DNA of 27,024 nucleotides from a virus, in the IMG/VR virus record IMGVR_UViG_3300046535_000413, positions 1 through 27,024 of that record. One strand, given 5' to 3'. This document shows positions 1 to 5,840 of the stretch, one piece after another. Position 1 is the stretch's first letter; every line of letters begins with the position of its first letter. The position numbers were made by a program, and so were the translations under genes. Below the pieces are notes generated by a model. The model saw only the letters and a list, made by a program, of their open reading frames with translations. It had not been told where the DNA came from and searched no databases.

Positions 1-53
1 AGGGGGTAGCGCAGCGTGGACAGGTCCACGCCGTCGAGGCTGGCACTCAGCAT
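1..53 (-). CDS. Partial gene running off the left edge; possible DNA ligase N-terminus
   Basis: An ATG at 53 on the minus strand opens a frame that stays open to the window edge and reads MLSASLDGVDLSTLRYP. It lies 14 bp beyond the stop of the kinase gene and on the same strand, so it is probably the next gene of the operon. I see no convincing Shine-Dalgarno (SD) sequence. The ending LRYP resembles the segment just before the catalytic KxDG motif in many small phage ATP-dependent DNA ligases, where 'LRYPxLxSPKxDG' is common. The lysine motif itself would lie outside the window, so this identity is only a guess. Confidence 0.4.
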   Translation of the reverse strand, partial: MLSASLDGVDLSTLRYP

Positions 54-67
54 TGGTGGGAACAACT

Positions 68-655
68 TCAAGATGCGTCCTCCAGGATGGCCCTGATTTG
101 ACCCACCGCAATGAGCGAGTCTTGGTGGTTGATACTGACCGTCCTCATCCCAGCCGCCTCTGCCTTGGCACGGAGCCGCTCGATGGTGACGTACTTGTCC
201 TTGGTGTTCTCAGGGTTGAACTTGGTCTTGGTACCCTGCGCCTCCCGGCGTTTGACGATCCGATCCAGGCAGGTCAGGATGGGAGTATCCATGAACGCCA
301 GAATGTAGTCGTCCCCAAGTCGAGACAGGTGCTTGCCCACGCCGCCTTGATAGGTGGAGAGCAGCAAACCTTCGAACAGCACATGGCAGTCGTTGTCCAC
401 GTAGTAGGCGTCAATGAGCTCGATGATCTTCTCTGCGTTGGACGAGAACGTGTCCATGCCCCCGCAGTTGGCCTGGTACGAGCCCAAGATGGCCAACGGT
501 GCGCTGATGTCGGGGAGGGCACACACGTAAGCCTCAGGCTTGTTCTGCCCAGAGGGGGTGATGGTCGTCACGTTGAAGGACGCCGCCATGAGGGCACGGG
601 CCACGGTGGTCTTGCCGGCCCCGGAGCACCCATGGAGCTTGATTACCTTAGTCAT
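68..655 (-). CDS. P-loop kinase, resembling phage 5-hydroxymethyl-dU DNA kinases
   Basis: This 195-residue protein is a P-loop NTPase of the nucleotide-kinase type. The Walker A motif GCSGAGKT is at residues 9-16. Two further motifs stand out: CGGMD at 64-68 and FEGLLLS at 94-100, the latter in the place of the Walker B/lid base of small kinases. This combination matches a widespread phage kinase family that I recall being connected with thymidine hypermodification, where 5-hydroxymethyl-dU in DNA is phosphorylated before other groups are attached. A plain dNMP kinase or another small-molecule kinase is the alternative. The ATG at 655 overlaps the stop of the upstream gene by 8 bp (ATGACTAA), indicating translational coupling. 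The kinase fold is secure; the substrate is inferred. Confidence 0.75.
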   Translation of the reverse strand: MTKVIKLHGCSGAGKTTVARALMAASFNVTTITPSGQNKPEAYVCALPDISAPLAILGSYQANCGGMDTFSSNAEKIIELIDAYYVDNDCHVLFEGLLLSTYQGGVGKHLSRLGDDYILAFMDTPILTCLDRIVKRREAQGTKTKFNPENTKDKYVTIERLRAKAEAAGMRTVSINHQDSLIAVGQIRAILEDAS

Positions 656-1013
656 GTGGCGGCTCCGTCCAGTCAGTCTCGACCATTTCCTCGGGGGCAG
701 TCTCCAACTTCTGGAGCATGACCCGGATGCTCGGGGCGATCTTGAACCTGCTGACGTACTCGTCGCACATGTCCATGCCGTAGAACAACAGCCAGCTGTA
801 GTTCTTGAAGTCCGATCCAGCCCACTTGCTCAGAGGGTGGTCGGGAGCGTGGGGCGACAGGATGTCGAGCCGCTTGGGCTGCTCGCTGGCGTGCCACACG
901 TTCGACAGGTGCTGGGCGATGCGGACAGGGCCGACGATCAGCCACATGTCCTCCATGCCCTTGACTGCCGTCTGCGTGTCTTTGTCCACGAACGGTAGAT
1001 CCATCTCATTCAT
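648..1013 (-). CDS. Small phage protein with HPxxxWA / CDEY signature
   Basis: This 121-residue protein has no domain I can name with certainty. Residues 59-89 contain the pattern HP-L-x-KWA-x4-NY-x-WLL...MCDEY-x-SRF. It matches a family of uncharacterised phage proteins (HP..xW...S..NY.WL....CDEY..RYG) and distantly recalls the bacterial MSMEG_6728 group, sometimes annotated as pyrimidine-dimer glycosylase-like. The conserved His, Trp and Asp-Glu suggest an enzyme or DNA-binding role, but no activity should be assigned. It starts at ATG 1013, overlapping the helicase stop by 8 bp, and ends overlapping the kinase start. It is thus translated as part of the helicase-kinase block. Confidence 0.7.
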   Translation of the reverse strand: MNEMDLPFVDKDTQTAVKGMEDMWLIVGPVRIAQHLSNVWHASEQPKRLDILSPHAPDHPLSKWAGSDFKNYSWLLFYGMDMCDEYVSRFKIAPSIRVMLQKLETAPEEMVETDWTEPPHD

Positions 1014-2394
1014 CGTGCTCTTCCTTGTAATGAACAGCCATCGTCTTCAGGGCCTCATTCAGCTTGGTCTGAGTGAAGTCCTTCTGCCCCAGCCGCTCGA
1101 TGACGACAGCGTCCAGGGTGTCCTTCGCCACAATGTGGTGGCAAATCACTATCGGGCTCGGTTGGCCTTGGCGCCAAATCCGGGCTATCGCTTGCTGGTA
1201 CAACTCCAAGTCCCAGGTGATCCCGTACCAGCAGATGTCGTGGCATACCTCCTGGAGGTTGAGACCGTGCCCCATTGACCTCGGGTGCCCCATCAGAATG
1301 GGTACCTCACCCCGGTTGAACTCCGCGATGGTCTTGAGGACATCCTTGGACTCCCCGATGTTGACCGCCCCAGGGAGGACTGCCTGGATCATCCTGGCGT
1401 CCTCGATGAACTCGTAGGCAATGAGGAGAGGCCTGCCCTGAAGCTCGTCCACCAGGTTCAGAAGCTCGTCCAGCTTGTGGCCGTGGACCGGGAGGGCCAC
1501 ATGATCCTCGTTGTAGATGAACCCATTGGCGATCTGACGGCACTTGGTCCCGAGCGCCGCTGAGGTGAAGGCCACGACTGTCTCGTCTGCGACCTTCAGC
1601 AGGAAGTTCTTCTCCATTTCCTTGTACATAGACATGTACTTCGGAGCCAGGGTGACCTCCCTGTAGACGTTCAACAGCTCCGGCATCTCAATGTGGTCCT
1701 TGGCCATAAGCCTCATGACCTTGCCCGCGATGCGCTTGTAGATGACCTCCGACATCCCTGGAGCCATCACCCAGCTGTAGCCGTCATAGGACTGTCGCAT
1801 GAACTCCATCCGGAAGTGCGTGATGTACCTCCCCAGGCTGACGCCCATGTCGACGACGTACATCTGGCCGAACAGGTCTTGGAGCCCATTCGGGGCGGGC
1901 GTCCCAGTGAGGATGATCCGCCTCTTGAACATGTGCAGGAACTTCTTGAGGTACTTGAACCGCTTCGTCGATGGGTCCTTGAACTTGGTCGACTCGTCCA
2001 CGACCAACATGTCGAGGTCTACGTGCTCCCAGGGGTCGAGGGCAAGCACCTTCTCCAATGACTCCGGGTTGATGACGTAGATGTCGAACTGCTTCTTGAG
2101 CAGCTCGATGCGAGTGAACTCGTCCCGCTCCGTCAGGTCGCAGACGGTGATGTCGTTGAAGTCCGTCCACTTCTTGGCCTCCACCGGCCAGACGGTCTTG
2201 GCTACCCGCAGAGGGGCGACGACCAGGGCGTGAGTCACATGCCCGCCCTCCTTGAGCAGTTGGAACCCTGCCAAGGTGGTCGAGGTCTTGCCCAGTCCCG
2301 GATCGAGCAGGAGTCCCCCATGGGGCTCCCGGACCAGGAACTCAAGCGAGGTTAGCTGATAGGGCCTTGGGGTCCAGGGGATTGGGGCGTTCAT
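1006..2394 (-). CDS. SNF2-type DEAD/H-box superfamily 2 helicase/translocase
   Basis: A complete 462-residue superfamily 2 ATPase that should act on phage DNA during replication, recombination or repair. In order it has a Q-like motif PYQ at 11-13, Walker A DPGLGKT at 31-37, motif II DEST at 133-136, motif III LTGTP at 162-166, motif V GHGLNLQ at 375-381 and motif VI QAIARIWRQGQ at 401-411 with both arginines. The DEST box, the xPNG after LTGTPA and the RIWRQGQ motif are typical of compact SNF2-like phage helicases. It has no extra nuclease or bromo/chromo domain. The ATG at 2394 lies inside the end of the upstream gene (53-bp overlap) and has no obvious SD, so translation is probably coupled. 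Confidence 0.93.
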   Translation of the reverse strand: MNAPIPWTPRPYQLTSLEFLVREPHGGLLLDPGLGKTSTTLAGFQLLKEGGHVTHALVVAPLRVAKTVWPVEAKKWTDFNDITVCDLTERDEFTRIELLKKQFDIYVINPESLEKVLALDPWEHVDLDMLVVDESTKFKDPSTKRFKYLKKFLHMFKRRIILTGTPAPNGLQDLFGQMYVVDMGVSLGRYITHFRMEFMRQSYDGYSWVMAPGMSEVIYKRIAGKVMRLMAKDHIEMPELLNVYREVTLAPKYMSMYKEMEKNFLLKVADETVVAFTSAALGTKCRQIANGFIYNEDHVALPVHGHKLDELLNLVDELQGRPLLIAYEFIEDARMIQAVLPGAVNIGESKDVLKTIAEFNRGEVPILMGHPRSMGHGLNLQEVCHDICWYGITWDLELYQQAIARIWRQGQPSPIVICHHIVAKDTLDAVVIERLGQKDFTQTKLNEALKTMAVHYKEEHDE

Positions 2395-3157
2395 AGGGGG
2401 TCAATGGCACTGGTTTGAGGAATTCAAGGAACAGAGGGGCGCTCTTGAGCTGCTTGCGACGGTCCAGCAGGTCTTGGCCAACTGCGTAGTCGCCGTTGTA
2501 CCAACCACGTAGGGCGCAGAGCATGGTCTCGGCTTCAGACAGGCCGCACTGTCTATTGGGAAGCCCCGGAGCAGTGAACCGGGTCAAGAATCGAGTCATA
2601 GCACTGAGGACGCCCAATAGCGGTACATCTGGCCATAGCAAGGTTGCGCCCTTCTTGGCCTCGTCCGGCATGTGTCTCACAGCCTCGTGCATCTCCAGCT
2701 TGACGGGCCTGCCGAGCACCCGATCCTGGTAGTCCATGACCTTCCACACGAAGTAGGGGCCATAGCCGCAGCCGTGGAACTTGTCTTGGAACTTCTTGAC
2801 CAAGGCCGTGTAGTTGGGCGCCCACGCTTCCTCAAGGAACACGCTGGGACTGCCGATCTTCTCGCAGTTTGCCACGTACTTCCTGCCGATGTCCCCTCTG
2901 GAGTGACGTCTGTTCGTTCCACGTGGGAAGTGGTCATAGTTGGAAATGACGTAGTCCCAGAACGAGCCCTCACTCGTGAGGTCTGCGGCGTGACAAGCCC
3001 CGCCAACGTCATAGAACGTGAGCAAGTGGGTGACGAACCGGGCCGTCCACAAATCGTTCCTGGCCTTATTGGCCGCCACTGTGAAGTCGTACAAGGGGTC
3101 CAAGTCCCCCGTCAAGATCACGGCTTCGCAGAGCTCACGCCAGTTTGTTATCAGCAT
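2342..3157 (-). CDS. Helix-hairpin-helix-like protein, candidate thymine-hypermodification enzyme
   Basis: This 271-residue, mostly helical protein starts at ATG 3157 behind a strong SD (GGAGGGATC). Its central segment, HGCGYGPYFVWKVMD at residues 128-142, resembles the GxGxGP...D hairpin of helix-hairpin-helix (HhH) DNA glycosylases. It also resembles the helical proteins predicted in hypermodified-thymine phages (alpha-glutamyl/putrescinyl-thymine pyrophosphorylases and the helical domain of hmdU DNA kinases). ACHAADL and FWDYV motifs lie at 54-60 and 67-71. A P-loop kinase with hmdU-kinase-like motifs is encoded three genes downstream in the same operon, which raises the likelihood. Which subfamily it belongs to, or whether it is instead an ordinary glycosylase-fold protein, cannot be settled by reading. 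Its C-terminus overlaps the helicase start. Confidence 0.6.
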   Translation of the reverse strand: MLITNWRELCEAVILTGDLDPLYDFTVAANKARNDLWTARFVTHLLTFYDVGGACHAADLTSEGSFWDYVISNYDHFPRGTNRRHSRGDIGRKYVANCEKIGSPSVFLEEAWAPNYTALVKKFQDKFHGCGYGPYFVWKVMDYQDRVLGRPVKLEMHEAVRHMPDEAKKGATLLWPDVPLLGVLSAMTRFLTRFTAPGLPNRQCGLSEAETMLCALRGWYNGDYAVGQDLLDRRKQLKSAPLFLEFLKPVPLTPYERPNPLDPKALSANLA

Positions 3158-3431
3158 GATCCCTCCACTTCCTGAGTTGGGCCTTGCCGCGCTGAACGTC
3201 GTCGATCACCTCCACCTCGAAGCCTGCCCGGATCAAGAGGCTATGCATGTGGATCTGAAGAGGGGTGGCCTTCTCTCCAGCTGCCTTGAACTCGATGAAG
3301 AAGGCTCGCCCCCTGTACAGGTAGAGTCGGTCAGGCCAGCCGCTCCCACTGATCGCCCCCATCTTGGTCTGGATGAAGCCGAGGGCCTTGGCCTCTACAT
3401 TGACCTTACTCTCAATTTCACTTTCCAACAC
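3135..3431 (-). CDS. VRR-NUC domain nuclease
   Basis: A stand-alone 98-residue VRR-NUC nuclease, the usual size for phage members. The catalytic core of this PD-(D/E)XK fold is visible: an N-terminal glutamate helix (ESEIESK), GWPDR at 31-35 with the metal-binding aspartate, IEFK at 46-49 supplying the E-x-K, and a downstream Q59. Such proteins cleave branched or flapped DNA and usually sit next to SNF2-like helicases in phage replication modules, as here. The start is a GTG at 3431, preceded by AAAGGA 8-9 bp upstream. An ATG at 3436 is out of frame. It overlaps the stop of the upstream nuclease by 14 bp and the next start by 23 bp. Confidence 0.92.
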   Translation of the reverse strand: MLESEIESKVNVEAKALGFIQTKMGAISGSGWPDRLYLYRGRAFFIEFKAAGEKATPLQIHMHSLLIRAGFEVEVIDDVQRGKAQLRKWRDHADNKLA

Positions 3432-4092
3432 GACATGGTCCTTTCTTGCGAATTGAGTAATCGCACCACTTGCACTTCTGCTCGCTCGGCGTGGCCTTGT
3501 ACTCCACGTCAGTCATGAGCTTGATGCCCCGCTCGCTCCAAGACCTGATCTTGGAGTTCAACATGTCGCCCCGGAGCAGTGCGCCGTCGTTGGAGGTGTG
3601 GCCCGTGTCGAGGTAGATGGCATTGTACTCGACCCTCTTGGCCTGAGGATAGACTTGGAGTCCGATCGTGCCGTACAGATCCAGTTGGTCTCGATGCTCA
3701 GGATACTCCCGCCCACTTTTGAAGTCATGGACGAACAGAGTGTGACCTTCAAGAACGTGGGCGTCAATGATCGCCTTGACCCAAGCCATGCGAGACTCCC
3801 GCACTGGGTACCACATCGAATCTGCGATCCACACGACCTCAGCCTTGGCGCGGCGGGCTTTGAGGTCCTCAAGGATCTTCTTGACCTTGCGAAGCTCGTA
3901 GTGAACCTCGGGCTGGACACCGTTGAGATAGTCCTCACACAGCTTGTGAAGCCGCGATCCCCGCAGCATAGCTGCGTTCTCAGCGGTCGGAATGTGCTCG
4001 ATGTAGCTGTAGTACCACTGACGAGGGCAGTTCTCATAGGTGGATATGCTGCTGTACGACCACCTAGTGGGTTTCATACTTGGCGAGGTCAT
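3418..4092 (-). CDS. PD-(D/E)XK exonuclease, Cas4/RecB-like with four cysteines
   Basis: A 224-residue nuclease of the Cas4/RecB family, expected to process DNA ends in replication or recombination. Visible elements are the YSSISTYENCPRQW opening (13-26), RGSRLHK (44-50) with the conserved histidine, D110, the DFK catalytic pair (123-125) and the downstream Q136. One cysteine at 22 and three near the C-terminus (207, 210, 220) suggest a 4Fe-4S clasp like those in Cas4 and AddB, though the last gap is CxxC-x9-C. I chose ATG 4092 because ACGGAG lies 9 bp upstream. A longer TTG-started frame from 4137 lacks such a site, and another ATG lies at 4077. It overlaps the PolA end by 29 bp. Confidence 0.9.
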   Translation of the reverse strand: MTSPSMKPTRWSYSSISTYENCPRQWYYSYIEHIPTAENAAMLRGSRLHKLCEDYLNGVQPEVHYELRKVKKILEDLKARRAKAEVVWIADSMWYPVRESRMAWVKAIIDAHVLEGHTLFVHDFKSGREYPEHRDQLDLYGTIGLQVYPQAKRVEYNAIYLDTGHTSNDGALLRGDMLNSKIRSWSERGIKLMTDVEYKATPSEQKCKWCDYSIRKKGPCRVGK

Positions 4093-5830
4093 GCCAGTTG
4101 GCTCCGTATTCAATTTCAGCAACGAATGGGACGTCAAAGCCTGGCAGGGACTCCATGGAGTGCTTCAGGGCCTCCACGTTCTCCTTCAGGTCATCGATGG
4201 ACGAGCTGGTGACGTTCTCATCGTGAACAGTCATCAGAAACCTACCTGGAGCACCGGTCTTGTGGTACTCGATGATGGAGTCCTTCGTTTGGTCAGCGGC
4301 TGAGCCTTGGATCAAGTGGTTCGGCAGGCGATACCCCCACTGCGGACCCTCCTTGGGAATCCACCGACCACCCCAGGTCTTGATGCCGGGCCTGCTAGAC
4401 GCATCGTCGATGAACTCCTCCAACCCAGGAATGGACTGGAGGTACGCATTCCTGATCCTGCGGACCGTGGGAATGTCCTTGGTCATCCCCAACTGGCCCG
4501 CGAGGTTGGGCACCCCGGCGCCATAGATGAGGCTGAACCCGACTATCTTGACTGGCTTCCGCTTCAGGTCAATCCCTGCTTCGTCGTGGACGATGTCACG
4601 GGCGATCTGGTGGAAGTCGGCTCGTGGGTCATCACGGTAGATTTGAGCTGCCCGGCCTTCAGCGAAGTGAGCCAGGAGTCGCATTTCCTGGCCGTTGTAG
4701 TCGGCTGCGACGATGACCTCACCCTCGTCTGGGAGGATGTACTTCCGCATGAAGGGCAATGGAGGGTATCCGAGCAGGTCCAGCCCTTCAAACTCGGTCG
4801 GGACATTCTGGAGATTTGGGTTTGAACAGGATAGCCGTCCAGTGCGCGTACCATACTCGTCGCCCTTGACTTGGTTCCAGGAGGGATGGAGGTGGCCGTC
4901 GTGGGCCGACATCTCCAGCCACGGCTTCATGAAAGTGCCCAGGAGAGTCTTGAGGGCTCCCCTGTAGCGGATCATCTTGGTCAGGATGCTGTCATTGAGC
5001 GCCCCGTCCAGGCTGTCCTTGGATGTACTGAGACGACCCGTGGGCGTCCGCAGGAAGTCTGACTCCTTGGCGAACCCCTTGCTCAGAAGGGCACGCGCTA
5101 CCTCAGCACCCGAGTCCAGGTTGATGTCGCCCAGTAGGGCGCAGACCTGATCGGTGATCTGCTTGAAGTAGAAGCTGTACAGGACGATGTCCGTGTAGAG
5201 CAGCTCACGGTTGATCCTGACGCCCTTGCGCTCGGCGTCCAGCATATGGGGCATGAGATCGAGCTCACGCTGATAGCCACGCTCCCACTTCTTCTGGACG
5301 ATCTCATCATGGAGACGCTCGTGGAGCAGGCCTGTGCGCCAGGTGTCCCCGTTCGCATAGGGCTCGATCAGACTCACGGGGCACCTGGCGATGAACGCCC
5401 CGGCCTCAGTGGGCTTGCGGGTCCACCCCTGGGCTAGCACATAGTCCTTGACCCGGTCCTGCTCTTCAGGAGGGATGCCAAGAATGGTGTTGGACGACGG
5501 CTTGAGGCTCGTCGTCTTGGCCAAAGGGTTGTGGAGGTAGATTTGGAACATGGTATCGTGGTAGCGCTTGGGCTTGGCGAAGCCCCAATGCTGCTCTGCG
5601 ACACCAACGTCGAACTTGGCGTTGTGAAAGACAGGCTCTTTGTCCCAGACCGCCGCAACCGCGTTCTTGGCCTGGTACTCTTCACAATTGTTGCCCTCAG
5701 GATGTCCCCAAGCCATGTACTTGGGCTGCTCACCGGGGAGCCAGATCGACACGCCAACAGGGGCGGGCGCTTGCCCAGTTCCGTCAACGATGGCTTGTGT
5801 CTCGAAGTCAACAATCGGAACTGTAATCAT
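4064..5830 (-). CDS. polA: DNA polymerase I (family A) with 3'-5' exonuclease
   Basis: A full-length 588-residue phage replicative polymerase. The proofreading domain has Exo I DFET (8-11), Exo II FHNAKFD (68-74) and Exo III Y158/D162. The polymerase domain has RTGRLS at 329-334, QNVP at 341-344, motif A VAADYNGQE (374-382), motif B K428...F432...YG (436-437) and motif C VHDE (535-538). Phenylalanine at 432 occupies the position that governs dideoxynucleotide discrimination. There is no 5'-nuclease domain, as expected for phage enzymes. I chose ATG 5830, with AGGG 6-9 bp upstream, over a GTG two codons earlier. An intrinsic-terminator-like hairpin lies just upstream, so expression probably depends on partial read-through from the upstream genes. 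Confidence 0.97.
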   Translation of the reverse strand: MITVPIVDFETQAIVDGTGQAPAPVGVSIWLPGEQPKYMAWGHPEGNNCEEYQAKNAVAAVWDKEPVFHNAKFDVGVAEQHWGFAKPKRYHDTMFQIYLHNPLAKTTSLKPSSNTILGIPPEEQDRVKDYVLAQGWTRKPTEAGAFIARCPVSLIEPYANGDTWRTGLLHERLHDEIVQKKWERGYQRELDLMPHMLDAERKGVRINRELLYTDIVLYSFYFKQITDQVCALLGDINLDSGAEVARALLSKGFAKESDFLRTPTGRLSTSKDSLDGALNDSILTKMIRYRGALKTLLGTFMKPWLEMSAHDGHLHPSWNQVKGDEYGTRTGRLSCSNPNLQNVPTEFEGLDLLGYPPLPFMRKYILPDEGEVIVAADYNGQEMRLLAHFAEGRAAQIYRDDPRADFHQIARDIVHDEAGIDLKRKPVKIVGFSLIYGAGVPNLAGQLGMTKDIPTVRRIRNAYLQSIPGLEEFIDDASSRPGIKTWGGRWIPKEGPQWGYRLPNHLIQGSAADQTKDSIIEYHKTGAPGRFLMTVHDENVTSSSIDDLKENVEALKHSMESLPGFDVPFVAEIEYGANWHDLAKYETH

Positions 5831-5840
5831 GTGCACCCTG

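Follow-up and report, generated by a model that had tools for sequence, protein, structure and literature searches.

Operon at the left end of the window

The virus record IMGVR_UViG_3300046535_000413 is a linear contig of 27,024 bases, which was analysed over its whole length (hereafter the window). Its left 5.8 kb carry seven minus-strand genes that overlap or abut and run in one direction. In operon order these encode a family A DNA polymerase, a RecB/Cas4-like nuclease, a VRR-type nuclease, a helical protein of the amino acid:DNA transferase (ADDT) family, an SNF2 helicase, a 121-amino-acid protein and a kinase of the 5-hydroxymethyl-deoxyuridine (5-hmdU) DNA kinase family (Table 1). An earlier note on this DNA had proposed that the kinase and the helical protein form a thymidine-hypermodification module within an operon that also holds the SNF2 helicase and two nucleases. 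Both open reading frames (ORFs) lie where it placed them and carry the motifs it named, on the minus strand, which it had left out, and in one gene cluster. Over a dozen viral contigs related to the window (given here as L numbers) keep the same gene order, which therefore is not a product of chance. We consider it very probable that this block is the left-end fragment of an operon for replication and thymidine hypermodification, working along the route proposed below. From family membership, fold, conserved motifs, synteny and co-occurrence, which are observed directly, we infer the activities, the missing genes, the product and the protection that it would confer.

The kinase and the amino acid:DNA transferase

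The kinase, which reads MTKVIKLHGCSGAGKTT... and contains the motifs CGGMD and FEGLLLS, has the 5-hmdU DNA kinase family PF18748 as its best Pfam match (E 1.2e-7; 31.9 bits against a curated cut-off of 27). In a tblastn comparison it aligns with gp54 of the Pseudomonas phage M6 over 98% of its length at 33% identity (E 4e-12). An alignment of 57 family members shows G9, G14, K15, G66, D68 (of CGGMD) and E95 (of FEGLL) to be invariant, which marks CGGxD and EGLL as signatures of the family, and the window protein keeps all ten invariant columns, which fall in the P-loop, CGGxD and EGLL(x)S motifs. Its structural model (predicted local distance difference test, pLDDT, 95.2) adopts a P-loop kinase fold, with Z ~13 to adenylate kinases and ~12 to polynucleotide kinase; this nucleoside monophosphate (NMP)/polynucleotide-kinase fold alone does not reveal the substrate. 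By family the protein is a 5-hmdU DNA kinase, and it is predicted to phosphorylate the 5-hydroxymethyl group of 5-hmdU in DNA. Phosphorylation of 5-hmdU in phage DNA by a 5-hmdU DNA kinase has been shown in vitro (PMC7653180), and an unpublished result quoted in PMC6449724 reports the M6 enzyme to be such a kinase. The name 'terminase small subunit', given to this family by PHROG 800 and in public annotation, was rejected as a carried-over annotation. It is misleading for phage annotation in the family of the window kinase, including NC_007809 gp54 and the kinase of Rhodoferax phage P26218 (NC_029061 gp15).

The 271-residue protein contains HGCGYGP and is predicted to be all-helical. A profile built from 66 ADDT relatives retrieves the PDB entries 25qc, an amino acid:DNA transferase (E 4e-100), and 8z2m, a glycinyltransferase (E 6e-92), both of which are also recovered with the window protein alone as query (E 9e-11 and 7e-8, respectively). 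Its AlphaFold2 (AF2) model (pLDDT 96.6; predicted template modelling score, pTM, 0.93) matches 8z2n in Foldseek (E 2e-9; TM 0.78-0.80). It shares a common fold with the 5-phosphomethyl-deoxyuridine (5-PmdU) glycinyltransferase PUGT, gp46 of phage PaMx11 (PDB 8z2m, 8z2n), over 243 residues (Z 28.5; root-mean-square deviation 2.0 Å), although the two are only 24% identical; a literature search found no paper on PaMx11 PUGT. The next structural matches are mostly DNA glycosylases, with archaeal 8-oxoguanine glycosylases and AlkA at Z 6.5-7.1. Across the 66 sequences, the window's included, 12 residues are invariant, and the window protein keeps all of them (D20, P21, Y23, Y49, R79, R83, G133, K139, D142, E208, E210 and C214). 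The protein belongs to the ADDT family, and on sequence and model is predicted to replace the phosphate of 5-PmdU with an amine or amino acid.

Both assignments of the earlier note have thus stood up. The kinase, taken there as hmdU-kinase-like, best matches 5-hmdU DNA kinases rather than plain deoxynucleoside monophosphate (dNMP) kinases by Pfam, PHROG and comparison with M6 gp54. Its proposed partner enzyme matches a solved 5-PmdU glycinyltransferase and not an unrelated fold, and the wording 'glycosylase-fold' holds because DNA glycosylases are next among the structural matches.

The kinase and ADDT also travel together. Among 43 ADDT-bearing viral loci with flanks of no less than 3 kb upstream and 5 kb downstream, the kinase is present in 42 and a thymidylate synthase (TS)-like gene in 40, as against 3 and 21, respectively, of 40 SNF2-related loci without ADDT. 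As these loci share ancestry and were chosen via ADDT or SNF2, the counts are a strong description and not a formal test.

The hydroxymethylase and HMUDK_hel in relatives

When viral contigs were scanned with the single sequence of the window ADDT or kinase, no relative was found. Relatives were found by a polymerase scan, which gave L006, and then by alignment-based SNF2 and ADDT scans, which gave many more. Every close relative that reaches far enough has the order polymerase, RecB-like nuclease, VRR-type nuclease, ADDT, SNF2, kinase, HMUDK_hel and TS-like gene. The last of these lies 0.7-2.6 kb downstream of the kinase, and an HD hydrolase comes after it in all close relatives reaching far enough except L007, whose contig stops soon after. 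HMUDK_hel (PF18723, the family of M6 gp55) is present in 18 of 23 records, and PF00303 in all ADDT-bearing records searched except the window, two contigs of <7 kb and one of 17.9 kb that breaks off directly behind HMUDK_hel. Both the catalytic Cys of PCN and the Asn of GAN are retained in the TS homologues; by the residue rule of the TS and deoxycytidine monophosphate hydroxymethylase families, this Asn is expected for deoxyuridine monophosphate (dUMP). The homologues in ADDT-bearing relatives are 37-47% identical to M6 gp58, and one TS-like protein tested falls short of the curated cut-offs that define true thymidylate synthases. The hydroxymethylase, which the earlier note had expected to lie outside the window, is absent from the contig and occurs past the kinase in the relatives. 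The fuller of these measure ~39-45 kb. An expected ~12-18 kb of the phage genome is missing from the window, or roughly 14-18 kb going by the relatives of 41-45 kb.

The 121-amino-acid protein is kept at the equivalent place in most close relatives. In several close relatives (L009, L089 and L093) a further gene stands between it and the kinase; the window lacks this gene, whose sequence by eye resembles a DNA methyltransferase (DLFGGVG, DPHKGT).

An ADDT clade without tailoring genes

M6, a 59 kb siphovirus and thus larger than the window's fuller relatives, encodes an ADDT (gp51; 27% identical to the window's), the homologous kinase, HMUDK_hel and the TS-like gp58; the families of gp55 and gp58 are both seen in the window's relatives. 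It differs in having tailoring genes of the pyridoxal phosphate (PLP; gp52) and radical S-adenosylmethionine (SAM)-like (gp53) types, neither of which is found in the window or in any of its close relatives. The tree built from 70 ADDT proteins has two sides (support 100/99). On the M6 side PLP, radical-SAM or flavin genes lie nearby in 33 of 38 loci; the other side holds the window, P26218 and phiW-14, and tailoring genes are seen in 0 of its other 29 viral contigs. Likewise, in whole-record searches of 23 records, radical SAM and PLP genes were found only in M6. The two sides also differ in motifs near conserved residues, with GFGPWIxFK and ETxLCK on the M6 side versus GxGPYFxWK and ETxLC[AMVG] on the other; the window itself has Y-F-x-W-K where M6-like ADDTs have W-I-x-F/W-K, and Ala in place of Lys after ETxLC. 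As its clade is without M6-type tailoring enzymes, the group attached by the window ADDT is probably left untailored. The motif differences imply that glycine may not be its substrate, and the enzyme may use another donor.

Two complete small podovirus genomes, those of P26218 and the uncultured MW202557, likewise have no tailoring genes. They encode in a single run a polymerase, a nuclease, SNF2, ADDT, the kinase, a TS-like hydroxymethylase and an HD hydrolase, but differ in that SNF2 precedes ADDT, HMUDK_hel is absent and no RecB-like nuclease lies inside the run. The best phage-database match of the window ADDT is gp109 of Delftia phage phiW-14 (31% identity, E 4e-28), an alpha-putrescinylthymine phage in which HMUDK_hel and TS are present and radical SAM and PLP genes absent. 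It differs in being a 157 kb myovirus, and a PF18748 search finds no kinase in it. Its ADDT lies on a long branch that groups with the window clade (support 99/86), but constraining it to the M6 clade is not rejected (approximately unbiased test, p-AU 0.295), so that this placement is not significant and putrescine as the donor is a lead only.

Exchange of genes beside HMUDK_hel

We found 64 loci with HMUDK_hel and a TS-like gene, comprising 45 with kinase and ADDT, 5 with the kinase alone, 10 with a TAGT-type glycosyltransferase and 4 with an unassigned protein; none mixes these sets. Where the gene order is that of the window, the glycosyltransferase occupies the position of the kinase. This swap pattern speaks for the locus being an hmdU-capping site, and for capping enzymes that can replace one another there. 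Relatives by SNF2 or polymerase that are without kinase and ADDT have a TAGT-like (PF20691) glycosyltransferase in the slot beside HMUDK_hel and the TS-like gene; in such relatives glycosylated hmdU is predicted, with HMUDK_hel present without its kinase.

The slot proteins of L014 and L031 have no Pfam or PHROG match, and PDB searches gave none for L014 and a chance-level one for L031. L038 and L041 each encode, in association with HMUDK_hel and TS, a homologue of the L014 protein. A GT-B-like identity, suggested for the L014 and L031 proteins by eye, was not adopted in view of these searches. As the proteins of L014 and L031 fill the slot of the kinase or glycosyltransferase, these proteins may be new hmdU-capping enzymes. 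Five loci (L021, L023, L024, L026 and L039) have the kinase, HMUDK_hel, TS and HD genes without ADDT; their end product may be phosphorylated hmdU, or another acceptor enzyme may have gone unrecognised.

There is also a broader proposal, to which we give slightly less than even credence. In the small-phage clade of the window, ADDT would install an amine other than glycine (putrescine-like or another amino acid) in one step and without tailoring, giving a final base that is undescribed or known only from phiW-14. Kinase and ADDT would form a cassette that is swapped with glycosyltransferases at one fixed locus, the hydroxymethylase and HMUDK_hel staying in place.

Table 1. Features of the window and of related loci
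Feature	Position	Strand	Basis
5-hmdU DNA kinase (by family), 195 aa	68..655	minus	PF18748, M6 gp54 homology, motifs, fold
Amino acid:DNA transferase (ADDT/PUGT family), 271 aa	2342..3157	minus	PF18724, PDB profile match, predicted structure, invariant residues
SNF2-type helicase	1006..2394	minus	PF00176 E 8e-22; phrog_62 E 4e-127; syntenic in relatives
121-aa protein between SNF2 and kinase	648..1013	minus	phrog_624 'DNA binding protein' E 6e-11
VRR-NUC-type nuclease	3135..3431	minus	phrog_93 E 2e-18; PF08774 only E 0.05
RecB/Cas4-like PD-(D/E)XK exonuclease	3418..4137	minus	PF12705 E 4e-19
Family A DNA polymerase, first gene of conserved block	4064..5836	minus	PF00476 E 2e-46; 61% identical in L006
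Start of ORF after kinase, MKLFPPMLSASLDGVDLSTLRYPL...	1..71	minus	TTG start overlaps kinase stop; cut by contig end
TAGT-like glycosyltransferase	L015:9901-10731		PF20691
TAGT-like glycosyltransferase	L016:4262-5056		PF20691
TAGT-like glycosyltransferase	L019:3307-4161		PF20691
TAGT-like glycosyltransferase	L028:9806-10606		homology only
TAGT-like glycosyltransferase	L029:7565-8386		PF20691
TAGT-like glycosyltransferase	L036:9807-10637		homology only
TAGT-like glycosyltransferase	L048:8740-9519		PF20691
Proteins associated with HMUDK_hel and TS	L014:10122-11264, L031:6094-7017, L038:715-1983, L041:725-1981
Gene between 121-aa protein and kinase	L009:5710-6372, L089:12721-13380, L093:12788-13399

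A proposed pathway and its alternatives

In the proposed route, the TS-like hydroxymethylase, encoded beyond the contig end, would make hydroxymethyl-dUMP, which the polymerase would put into DNA as 5-hmdU. The kinase would phosphorylate selected 5-hmdU to 5-PmdU, and ADDT would then put an amine or amino acid in place of the phosphate, probably helped by HMUDK_hel, which, judging by the relatives, also lies beyond the contig end. The attached group would probably stay as installed, and the virions of the window phage would, we infer, carry a modified thymidine.

Four observations weigh against this route. Neither a TS-like hydroxymethylase nor HMUDK_hel is found in the 27 kb window. The ORF after the kinase is unlike the start of HMUDK_hel in relatives; since Pfam and phage-record searches with its peptide also gave no match, an insertion or loss is possible at this point. 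The window ADDT scores just below the cut-off of the Pfam model PF18724 (E 1.5e-5; 25.3 bits against 26.2), which among its close relatives L088 (29.4) and L089 (34.1) pass and L006 (15.9) does not. Finally, ADDT position 82 is Asn in the window and its nearest relative L007, and Glu in nearly all relatives. The idea, formed by eye, that the ORF is the start of a DNA ligase was rejected, as the same searches were empty and PF01068 is found in 0 of 18 records.

The two missing genes and the deviant ORF would also be seen had the pathway decayed, leaving kinase and ADDT behind after loss of the hydroxymethylase or HMUDK_hel, with no thymidine hypermodified. We regard this as improbable, given that no more than 67 bases of the contig remain past the kinase, that in relatives the kinase and HMUDK_hel are often separated by 1-3 small unrelated genes, and that both window enzymes keep all invariant residues. 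Less credible still is an ordinary dNMP or polynucleotide kinase accompanied by an unrelated DNA repair glycosylase in a mere replication operon: the kinase does share the fold of the former and ADDT that of the glycosylases (Z ~7), but the families of dNMP, thymidylate and polynucleotide kinases align with the kinase at hardly more than the P-loop (E 0.0003-0.06), whereas PF18748 covers most of its length at 1e-7, the glycinyltransferase is by far the closer structure (Z 28.5) and the two genes travel together. It is just as hard to credit that the target is host or competitor DNA, or another base such as 5-hydroxymethyl-deoxycytidine (hmdC), instead of the phage's own thymidines: Asn is retained in the GAN motif of the relatives' TS homologues, and 5-hmdU and 5-PmdU are the substrates of those kinases and transferases of the two families that have been characterised (PMC7653180; title of PDB 8z2m).

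Biological significance

The hypermodification system proposed for the window is of a known kind, combining a 5-hmdU kinase and an amino acid:DNA transferase as in M6. What is added here is a minimal version of it in small phages that does without tailoring, the place of the hydroxymethylase in relatives and evidence that capping enzymes can be exchanged. In such a pathway, thymine in the phage DNA receives a small amine or amino acid, which hides the DNA from bacterial restriction enzymes; thymidine hypermodification protects the DNA of M6, ViI and phiW-14 from 48%, 71% and 69%, respectively, of the Type II restriction enzymes tested (PMC6449724). The exchange of kinase and ADDT for glycosyltransferases at one site indicates that HMUDK_hel is not tied to the kinase of its Pfam name. 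The locus would extend thymidine hypermodification to small phages whose gene set is minimal and free of tailoring genes. With this set, base attachment is separated from the chemistry that follows, and the donor specificity of the ADDT family becomes testable with one cultured relative, P26218.

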